Positions 48,051 through 50,981 of a stretch of DNA of 64,000 bases are shown here, piece by piece; the stretch's first letter is position 1, and each line of letters starts with the position of its first letter. The translations under genes and the position numbers were made by a program. Source of the stretch: Aquanectria penicillioides (taxonomy: Eukaryota > Ascomycota > Sordariomycetes > Hypocreales > Nectriaceae); the NCBI GenBank assembly GCA_003415625.1, contig PYIU01000007.1, forward strand, positions 3,038,001 through 3,102,000. The letters run 5' to 3'. Below the pieces are notes generated by a model. The model did no database searches. It worked only from the letters and a program-made list of their open reading frames with translations, and was not told where the DNA came from.

Positions 48051-50981
48051 ATGCCAACCTCGGGTAGTGTCTTCTCCGAGACCCTGCAGGAGATCACCAA
48101 CACCAAACTTGACGAGTTATCCAAGAGGCGATCTGGTTTCGAAGAGGAAAAAGCAGCTATTCTTGCCTCCATCCACGCGGAAGAAGATGCTGTTAAGCGT
48201 CTCGTGATTCTGGGCGATGGCGTCAAGAAGTGCTTCGCCATCAAACTCGACAAAGCCGGCAAGGTGTTTCTCAACCAGGGAAAGAATAAACGCCTGGAGA
48301 CTGAGCTGAGGAACCTCGATCGCTTCCTTGGTCAGGCCAAGTATGATCCGTCCGTCTCTGCCAAGATGCTGGAGGCGTGGGAAAAGTCTCTCCTTCGTCA
48401 CTTGGATATGCAGTCTCTCAAATTCCAGTACGCGTCCCTTTACGGACAGCTCGTTACAGAATGGCTGTCCGGAGACAAGGAGGAGGAAGCTGTAGCTGGC
48501 GATGACGTTGAGATGGGAGAGGCATTTGAGGTTGTGGGCAACGCGATGAAGTTGGAGTCCAGAATGGAGTGGGAAAAGATGGTATTCGAGCCAGCCAACG
48601 TAGATGAGACCGGACTAAAGCAATACTTGGATCGACTTTTTGGAGTGGAAAACGAGGAAAAGAAAGACATTCACAGTGCCCTGAAGGACCTTCGGGATGC
48701 GGTTTATTTCTTTGAGTCGCAGATATCGACGCCGAACCAATTCACCATCGCCTCCCTGCAATGGGTTATCAAAGGGCTCCATTCTTCTGACCTACTCTCT
48801 GACGAGAAACGAGAGGTTTTGAAGGACTTTGAAGGAAACAACATCATTTTAAGTGAGATCGCAGATGTCCTCAATATGCGCATTAGCGCTTTAAGCTCAT
48901 GGACTTGGAGCTCTGAGGCACCCGTTCCCGTTGAGATGCGACGCAAGATTAACGGTACCTACAATATCCACATGCACGAGGACCTACTACAGGCAATATT
49001 CCTCCAGTACATCGGTGTCAAATGGAGCGTCTTCTTCAAAGAGGCCTTCAAAGACTTCCGCCGTGCCGATGGCGCATGGAAGTCCACACGCAAGGACATT
49101 CCAAAAATTGATAAGCTGCGACTAGGTTATTACCTCGGCCCCCTTCAGCGCTCGCCTTGCCTGCAAACTTCACGGACAAAGATCTATAACAAGAATTATT
49201 TTATGGCGCAACTCATGAGCCACGAGCAGCAGGCCACAGAGATTGCAGAAGGTGAAGAAGAGGCCGACTATGAGGAGTTTGCGCCGAACAGTCTCAAGCG
49301 AAGACCCAGGGCAAAACAAACGGCGAGAAAGTCGATGCCAGCCCAACAGGCTCCCCGAAGACAGCTCGCGAGCAAGGCAGCTCGGAAATCAGCTCCATCA
49401 GTTGGTATGGTACTTCAATGTGACATGGATGAAGACGACGACGACGATGACGATGAAGACGAGGACAGGCCCCGCAACCCCATGGCACTTAAACAAACCC
49501 TGTTGCATTTGTTATCGACGGAAATCGCCATAAACAATCGTCTCTATGGCGAAATGACCGCATTTCATTCTGTATTTGAGAGTTGGAACCCTCAATTGCC
49601 CCACGAGACTGTGTGCACAGTTCTGAAGTACTTTGGGGTCTCCGAGACATGGCTTGGGTTTTTCAGAAAGTTTCTGGAGGCTCCCCTGAAGTTTACCGAC
49701 GATGACAGCTCGGTTCCAGCGCGAAAGCGGCGCCGAGGAACTCCTGGATCACATGTCCTCAGCGAAGTGTTTGGTGAGACTACCCTCTTCTGTTTAGACT
49801 TTGCGGTCAATCAGTCGACTTCCGGCAGCTTCCTCTGGAGAATTCACGACGACATTTGGTTCTGGTCTAGCGACCACAAGGTTTCTGTGCAAGCCTGGAA
49901 GACTGTGGATGCCTTTTCTCGGATCACTGGCACGAAAGTTAACCCGGCCAAGAGTGGCACGATTCGTATTTCGAATAACGCTGAGCTAACCTTGCCAATC
50001 GACAACTGTCTTCCTAATGGTGAGATCCGTTGGGGATTCTTGAGGCTGTCGTCGCGAACGGGCAAGTTCGAAATTGACCAAGCCATGGTGGACTCCCATA
50101 TTGAGGAGCTACAAAAGCAGCTCAATGACAAACGCAAGAGCGTGCTCGCTTTCATTCAAGCTTGGAATACGTATGCTGCTACCTTTTTCACCTCCAACTT
50201 TGGTAAAGCAGCAAACTGTTTCGGCCGAGAACACGTCGACAACATGCTCTCTACACACAGGCGGATTCAACAACGGATTTTTTCCATGTTAGCCGAGGAC
50301 GCTGAAGACAAAGTGTCTAGTGTGGCTGAGTATCTCAAAAAGGAACTCAACAAGCGCTTTGGAATTAGCGACATCCCTGACGGGTACCTATATTTCCCTA
50401 TGGAACTCGGTGGCCTTGATCTACAGTCTCCATTCACTTCACTACTTCAGATCCGCGACGAAGTCTCAGAATCCCCTTCAGAGGTTCTTGACACATTTGA
50501 GGAAGCAGAACGGGACGCTTATACTCGTGCCAAGACGGCGTTCCTCGAGGGCAACATAAAGCATCAGCGATATGCGCTTGATGACCCAGACTGGGTGCCG
50601 GAGTCGGCTCGCGATCGAGAGACCTTCATATCCTTCGAGGAGTACATCCGCTACAGGGAAGATTTCAAGTTTGAGAACCATTCCAACAGAACAAGGTTGC
50701 ACGAGGTCTTTGACAAGCTAATGGGGAGGCCCCATGAGAAGAGCGTCGATGCTGATGACAGCAAGGTGTGGACAGCGCTGAATCAGCTCCACGGGCAGCC
50801 AAATCAGCGAGGTATTACGAGTAGTTGGCCTACCATGGAGCCGTACTGGCGCTGGGTGTCGATGATGTATGGCCCTGAGATCGTGGACCGCTTTGGGGGC
50901 CTCAACATTGTTGACCCTGGTCTTTTGCCCATGGGAATGGTTACATTGTTTAGGGATAAGCGGGTGAAGTGGCAGGGCTAG
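48051..50981 (+). CDS. rvt: Fungal rvt-type reverse-transcriptase-related protein with an internal histone H3-tail-like segment
   Basis: Intronless, 976 aa. The N-terminus (about 8-60) is a probable coiled coil ([18 protein letters not shown]). [16 protein letters not shown] (about 380-396), [20 protein letters not shown] and the palm segment [14 protein letters not shown] with D600 D601 fit the layout of cellular RT (rvt) genes of fungi, which carry a long loop between the second and third RT motifs. In that loop, residues 422-454 copy the H3 tail: KQTARKS (K4-S10), APR (A15-R17) and [13 protein letters not shown] (Q19-S31), then G452 and V454 as G33 and V35. That is 25 of 32 H3 positions, with one inserted residue. 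An acidic run (458-472) and a basic ARKRRRG follow. The expected motif A Asp is not seen (FHSVFESW, V508). Family call from remembered motifs; the H3 match is direct. Confidence 0.85.
   Translation: [976 protein letters not shown]

Follow-up and report, generated by a model that had tools for sequence, protein, structure and literature searches.

A histone H3 tail-like segment in the variable loop of a reverse-transcriptase-like protein of Aquanectria penicillioides

Why would a cellular protein that resembles a reverse transcriptase (RT) carry, in the middle of its chain, a stretch that reads like the tail of histone H3? This question is raised by a 64,000-nucleotide stretch of the Aquanectria penicillioides genome (assembly GCA_003415625.1, contig PYIU01000007.1, positions 3,038,001 to 3,102,000 of the forward strand), hereafter the window, where one continuous open reading frame (48051..50981, + strand) codes for a 976-residue protein that we take to be an RVT protein. 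RVT genes are RT-related cellular genes, among them Neurospora rvt, and were reportedly described by Gladyshev and Arkhipova. Histone mimicry is best known from short viral protein motifs, and there are also host histone mimics such as the G9a-type sites.

We compared the RVT-type protein with the H3 protein of the same genome, which was read from the H3 gene with splice sites placed by eye. Residues 422-454 are identical to K4-V35 of this H3 at 25/32 positions with a single inserted residue, the same figures that a preliminary description of the window had given relative to fungal H3, and a local alignment gives 26/34 identical residues over R2-V35 with one inserted residue. The mimic occupies 49311..49412 (+ strand), with the codons of residues 422-454 spanning 49314..49412. 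Both ARKS sites highlighted in that description are present, with K427 aligning with H3 K9 and K446 with H3 K27. The segment keeps four of the six H3 tail lysines (K4, K9, K23 and K27), has Q in place of K14 and R in place of K18, and contains no K-to-M replacement. Scored against the H3 tail, the loop reaches 109, relative to a best score of 54 among 20,000 shuffles, and a six-frame search of the 53.8-megabase genome with the H3 tail matched the segment with E=2.8e-7. Four candidates were scored in this search, which could miss weaker copies; two of the other three lie at the H3 gene and the third is weak (E=0.137), falling at the N-terminus of a 358-residue open reading frame (G000:C2:1062256-1062315, (-) strand). 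An H4 mimic elsewhere in the genome was sought with the pattern GA[KM]RHRK and rejected, as the three matches are two H4 genes and one 107-residue frame that looks like chance. No histone family is found among the Pfam matches of the RVT-type protein up to E 1, and the nine genome-wide matches to PF00125 all lie outside its reading frame. Chance or composition as the source of the H3 likeness is ruled out by the shuffles together with the reversed-tail controls given below. At the level of sequence the segment is a histone mimic, in the sense of tail similarity beyond chance within a non-histone protein.

This agreement is confined to the protein level. A comparison of codons with the H3 gene, as proposed in the preliminary description, upheld the protein match and gave no codon likeness, with identical codons at 5/26 identical residues versus 8.9 expected from codon usage. 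As the amino acids agree but the synonymous sites do not, nothing points to recent copying at the DNA level, and a recent copy from the H3 gene is ruled out. The H3 gene also has an intron inside codon 25, a place that the RVT segment spans ungapped.

The segment had been described as lying in a variable loop between RT motifs beside an acidic run, and this placement is borne out by the AlphaFold2 model and by fold matches. A Pfam scan of the protein up to E 1 returned no RT family, and Pfam on two relatives returned only RVT_1, below the cut-off; the fold was settled by a fold search, which gave the R2/LINE/group II RT fold with fingers, palm and thumb present. The model has a well-folded core and an insertion between fingers and motif A in which residues 424-470, between a helix (371-383) and a strand (501-509), are predicted to be disordered with a predicted local distance difference test score (pLDDT) below 50. 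As delimited by the alignment of 208 proteins introduced below, the variable loop runs from the finger helices to motif A (residues 389-475, 49215..49475). It contains a basic cluster, KRRPR, directly before the H3-like stretch (49296..49310) and an acidic run after it (residues 458-472, 49422..49466), all on the + strand. The predicted disorder beside a folded core suggests that the loop is probably displayed. A search of the whole genome with residues 477-976 gave one match, indicating that the RVT-type protein is single-copy and not a mobile element.

Is the mimic peculiar to this species? Two database searches (E<=0.001) gave 733 and 697 homologues, and the best 120 of each made up 207 distinct proteins, or 208 with the query, from which the loop was cut out between flanking alignment blocks. 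Loops of at least 60 residues were obtained from 203/208 proteins, and the shorter ones (P0023, P0026, P0030, P0046 and P0048) were dropped before counting. We used two cuts, a looser one in which a loop's score had to beat all 1000 of its own shuffles, and one of z>=8. At z>=8 the H3 tail is found in 116/203 loops and the H4 tail in 36/203, and neither reversed tail is found in any, which indicates that the tail sequence is kept and not just its charge. At the looser cut there are 126/203 H3-like and 56/203 H4-like loops (90 with H3 only, 20 with H4 only and 36 with both), and by eye loops such as those of P0004 and P0014 resemble H3/H4 chimaeras. H3-like loops occur in five classes of Pezizomycotina, namely Sordariomycetes (P0033), Leotiomycetes (P0082), Dothideomycetes (P0155), Lecanoromycetes (P0167) and Eurotiomycetes (P0207). 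On a tree built without the loop they lie on either side of the midpoint root, and the tree calls for 38 or more changes for H3 and 19 or more for H4. Searching PDB sequences with a 56-sequence family profile gave RT first (E 1.7e-6) and then, among the best 60 of 68 matches, H3 tails weakly (E 0.014 and up), while individual loops searched alone gave H3 for P0033 (E 1.5e-13) and H4 for P0191 (E 0.0015). Bacterial relatives, sought as a histone-free control, gave 83 pattern-matching stretches, none of which was confirmed. The search of relatives for H3-like loops that had been advised is thus answered positively for the majority of loops and negatively for those with neither tail, counted below, which in part bear out the outcome that the preliminary description had named as refuting it. 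A literature search, covering top-ranked results with few subscription papers, brought up no study that describes histone tails in the RVT family.

Loops at this position also carry peptides that resemble other protein tails. Stalk-like peptides of the MGFGLFD type occur in 4/203 loops (shuffled mean 0.0), YSPTSP-type peptides resembling the C-terminal domain (CTD) of RNA polymerase II (Pol II) in 4/203 (0.002), Sub2-like peptides of the IDYSDE type in 21/203 (0.018) and EQQNKKR in 6/203 (0.0). The A. penicillioides genome has three coding sites for MGFGLFD, two of them adjoining ribosomal P-protein matches and the third in a protein with VIT and VWA domains (C1:7785940). It has two for LIDYSDEE, one close to the N-terminus of a Sub2-like gene, presumably Sub2 itself as judged by a conserved stretch, and one in the VIT/VWA protein; backward-pattern controls for both peptides gave 0. 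The VIT/VWA protein, a 901-residue open frame within G000:C1:7782500-7788500, matches VIT at E 2e-36 and VWA_3 at E 1e-28, and its two peptides lie at C1:7785940-7785996 with LIDYSDEE starting 12 bases past MGFGLFD. This stretch has a weak Ribosomal_60s match (E 0.0028, below the cut-off), and when a 52-residue piece around both peptides was searched against PDB sequences, 19/19 matches were ribosomal P0/P1/P2 ends (E 0.8-10), with no match for the Sub2-like part. Genome searches with an 18-residue stalk peptide and a 22-residue Sub2-like peptide missed these VIT/VWA copies, which were later found by DNA patterns, indicating that such short protein searches under-report. H3 tails are also seen in a Xylaria VIT/VWA protein (P0286), a metagenome VIT + VWA protein (P0284) and a metagenome protein with VWA_3 only (P0274). 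These came from a protein search that gave 295 proteins, from the best 120 of which an H3-like stretch was read in 14, with many others, uncounted, having histone Pfam domains. The shared peptides indicate that two unrelated families, RVT and VIT/VWA, have an overlapping set of tail-like peptides.

What the loop might be kept for can be approached through the residues that are conserved. Across the 126 H3-like loops, the cells that differ from H3 amount to 55/455 for R, 135/690 for A, 136/358 for T and 375/739 for K, and the tree-based changes per row follow the same order (R 0.109, A 0.159, T 0.321, K 0.355). Purifying selection on the two ARKS lysines, as the preliminary description had envisaged, finds no support in these loops, given that K9 is kept in 58/103 and K27 in 54/111 versus 91/104 for R8 and 96/114 for R26. 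The serines S10 and S28 are kept in 62/101 and 77/104, and the lysines K14 and K23 in 53/117 and 75/118, respectively. In the 56 H4-like loops R17 and R19 are invariant, K16 is M in 31/56 and kept in 20/56, and K12 is kept in 3/45; an R[HFY]R filter applied before this table was drawn up dropped 0/56 loops. Lysines, which in histones carry the marks, rank with the most poorly retained residues, so methylation or acetylation of lysine is probably not what selection acts on, and the preference for arginine over lysine argues against the usual methyl-mark view of histone mimics.

We tentatively favor, at somewhat short of an even chance, a reading in which the loop is an exposed, disordered docking or decoy site on a domesticated RT-like protein, a fast-changing site that imitates the tails of histones and other proteins central to gene expression. 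The loop would be displayed beside the folded RT core, where it would present a surrogate histone tail, that of H3 in this species, to a cellular or foreign factor. We infer that this factor would grip tails by their arginines and small residues, whether the lysines are marked or not, so that the outcome would be an arginine-anchored docking site or decoy for which lysine marks are irrelevant and whose resemblance to histone tails selection would maintain. The occurrence of H3, H4 or other tail peptides at the same spot in relatives makes the loop look like a site of display rather than the product of accident, and swapping among them together with fast turnover is what might be expected of a bait in a conflict. 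Among 80 loops, mean segment identity between species stays at 0.45-0.60 in every bin whose mean core identity lies between 0.45 (one pair) and 0.82, and it increases only in bins beyond that, a plateau that suggests rapid turnover within the bounds of an H3-like form. The tail-like peptides give the RVT family a testable handle, namely a search for the binding partner of the loop.

Several observations weigh against the docking or decoy reading. The loops sampled come from the best-ranked entries of two lists and were not drawn at random, and the first query included the H3-like loop itself, which may have biased the ranking. Neither an H3 nor an H4 tail is found in 57/203 loops, and the looser cut is also passed by the reversed tails in 9 (H3) and 8 (H4) of 203. 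The loop is missing from 5/208 protein models; close relatives of four of these five keep it, such that splicing it out is either a modelling choice or a real variant, and in A. penicillioides the 976-residue frame is open in the DNA through the loop. The conservation pattern is not purely one of lysine loss, as T sites vary almost as much as K sites do, the single H3 column V35 changes more than the K columns (0.446 per row), and the H4 columns L10/L22 change at 0.452 per row versus 0.333 for the H4 K columns. The 80 loops behind the identity plateau are H3-like nearly throughout, which alone sets a floor, and segment identity is 0.50 at a core identity of 0.77, a large difference between close relatives that indicates loose constraint. 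The names Sub2 and CTD for loop peptides are putative assignments of our own, and searches of PDB sequences with P0191 and P0033 gave no match, among the best 60, to the stalk-like part of the former or the Sub2-like part of the latter.

A broader proposal, which we consider unlikely, is that filamentous ascomycetes have a hitherto unrecognised class of bait proteins, including at least RVT and VIT/VWA, in which interchangeable H3, H4, P-stalk, Sub2 and Pol II CTD tails in one fast-evolving loop would work as decoys for, or sensors of, foreign or rival proteins that target such tails, much as plant immune receptors have integrated decoys. If the peptide sets of the two families do reflect one function, they would exemplify a new type of mimicry with several targets.

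Other explanations account for parts of these data. A quite unlikely one is that the loop is an unmodifiable pseudo-substrate, in which replacement of lysine by M, R or Q would inhibit histone methyl- or acetyltransferases in the manner of K-to-M histones. Lost lysines are indeed mostly replaced by R, M or Q, and K to M accounts for 74/375 replaced lysines in H3-like loops (a count that takes in acetylation-site lysines) and 35/131 in H4-like loops versus 26/2405 at lysine columns of the RT core, as well as for 29/141 H3-lysine events inferred on the tree. In fission yeast K9M traps the SET enzyme Clr4 (PMC5030085), which also counts in favor of this explanation. However, methionine is also gained from A (13/135 versus 14/1666 in the core), from R (5/55 versus 13/1984) and from other residues of the segment, so part of the K-to-M excess is a general taste of the loop for methionine. 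Replacement of lysine by R and Q is about as common in the core (shares of 0.35 and 0.13) as in the segment (0.33 and 0.14), and the A. penicillioides protein itself has retained most of its tail lysines with no change to M.

Improbable as well is a histone-type nuclear import signal, in which either tail would serve because those of H3 and H4 both bind Kap123-type importins. The redundancy and competition of the two tails for Kap123 described in part of PMC5677370, and the basic cluster just before the mimic, would be congruent with this idea. The same part of that source has Kap123 relying on H3 K14 and K23 and on H4 K16, with R17/R19 helping, and this does not agree with the Q found at K14 here, although K23 is kept, or with the frequent loss of K14, K23 and K16 in relatives. 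The stalk-like and Sub2-like peptides do not fit an import signal either.

We regard as very improbable the methyl-lysine mimic favored in the preliminary description, in which K427 and K446 would be methylated like K9 and K27 and would attract readers of the HP1 or Polycomb type. Neither ARKS site is altered in A. penicillioides, where both could thus be methylated, but the equivalent lysines are often replaced in relatives, and reading of H3 by such proteins does not explain the swaps to H4 or other peptides. Overall the preliminary interpretation is partly supported, with the match and its setting upheld and its proposed lysine-based function not.

Equally improbable is a neutral leftover, namely an old H3 cDNA fragment decaying in a tolerant loop. 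Passage across the H3 intron position without a gap, the fast turnover of the loop and the loops with neither tail all suit such an origin. Decay is difficult to square with H3-like loops at the same place in five classes despite the low segment identity between close relatives, with the contrast between arginines and lysines, and with the presence of further tail-like peptides both at this site and in a protein unrelated to RVT. Least probable of all is a generic hairpin of basic and acidic residues that would serve in nucleic acid binding or in gating of the RT active site, with an incidental likeness to histones. Such a hairpin would suit the acidic stretch near the loop end in 185/203 loops and the run of three K/R found in 108/203 among the first 60 letters of the segment, but not the failure of the reversed tails of H3 and H4, which match the true tails in composition, to reach z>=8 in any loop.

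Comparison with known systems places the docking or decoy reading among partial precedents. In plant NLR integrated decoys, variable and swappable imitations of host targets sit at a fixed place in a conserved protein. The RVT loops likewise vary and swap at a fixed site of a conserved protein, but they are short tail peptides and not domains, they belong to another protein family, and an immune role would be suggested only by analogy. The viral histone mimics NS1 and ORF8, as presented in portions of PMC10208167, are like the RVT loop in having an H3-tail-like stretch within a non-histone protein; the RVT loop differs in that its mimic is ~30 residues long, resides in a cellular fungal protein, is swapped for H4 or other peptides and has poorly conserved lysines. 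The AutoN motif of ISWI is an internal remodeller motif once taken as a pseudosubstrate standing in for the H4 tail, and PMC5305211 states that it is not a simple pseudosubstrate; in contrast to AutoN, the RVT loop has no fixed motif.

In its other features the protein resembles RVT genes: it is cellular, RT-like and present in one copy, its N-terminus is helical, its fingers are separated from motif A by a long insertion, and its fold is of the R2/LINE/group II type. It seems to differ at motif A (residues 501-509, 49551..49577), a strand assigned from the model which apparently lacks the catalytic Asp and has A504 in its likely register. With the register set by eye, this strand has no conserved Asp among the 208 proteins, and column 504 is A in 122/208 and C in 82/208, or 204/208 together. 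The motif B region (residues 562-589, 49734..49817) was delimited by eye on the model, with a DRT9 RT profile match at 561-651, and motif C (residues 596-605, 49836..49865) has D600 and D601, present in 199/208 and 166/208 proteins, respectively; all three are on the + strand. The RVT-type protein is thus a possible pseudo-polymerase, with the motif A Asp seemingly replaced and the motif C Asp mostly kept, and the apparent A or C at motif A would fit a scaffold role. Passages of PMC3520738 describe Neurospora crassa RVT as non-essential, induced by a block of protein synthesis and active as a terminal transferase, an activity that sits uneasily with a missing motif A Asp unless the N. crassa protein differs.

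A few further observations concern tail-like peptides in other proteins. The motif QDYQMQLMLLEQQNKKR occurs in two other proteins of the genome (G000:C12:2317337 and G000:C6:6532816), and its EQQNKKR part is the peptide also seen in RVT loops; the top-ranked results of a literature search held no mention of LLEQQNKKR. The SET-domain protein P0270 has about three tandem H3-tail-like units. Finally, a further gene with a VIT match lies at G000:C8:4102000-4107500, and the open frame adjoining it has GLFG-type, nucleoporin-like stretches.

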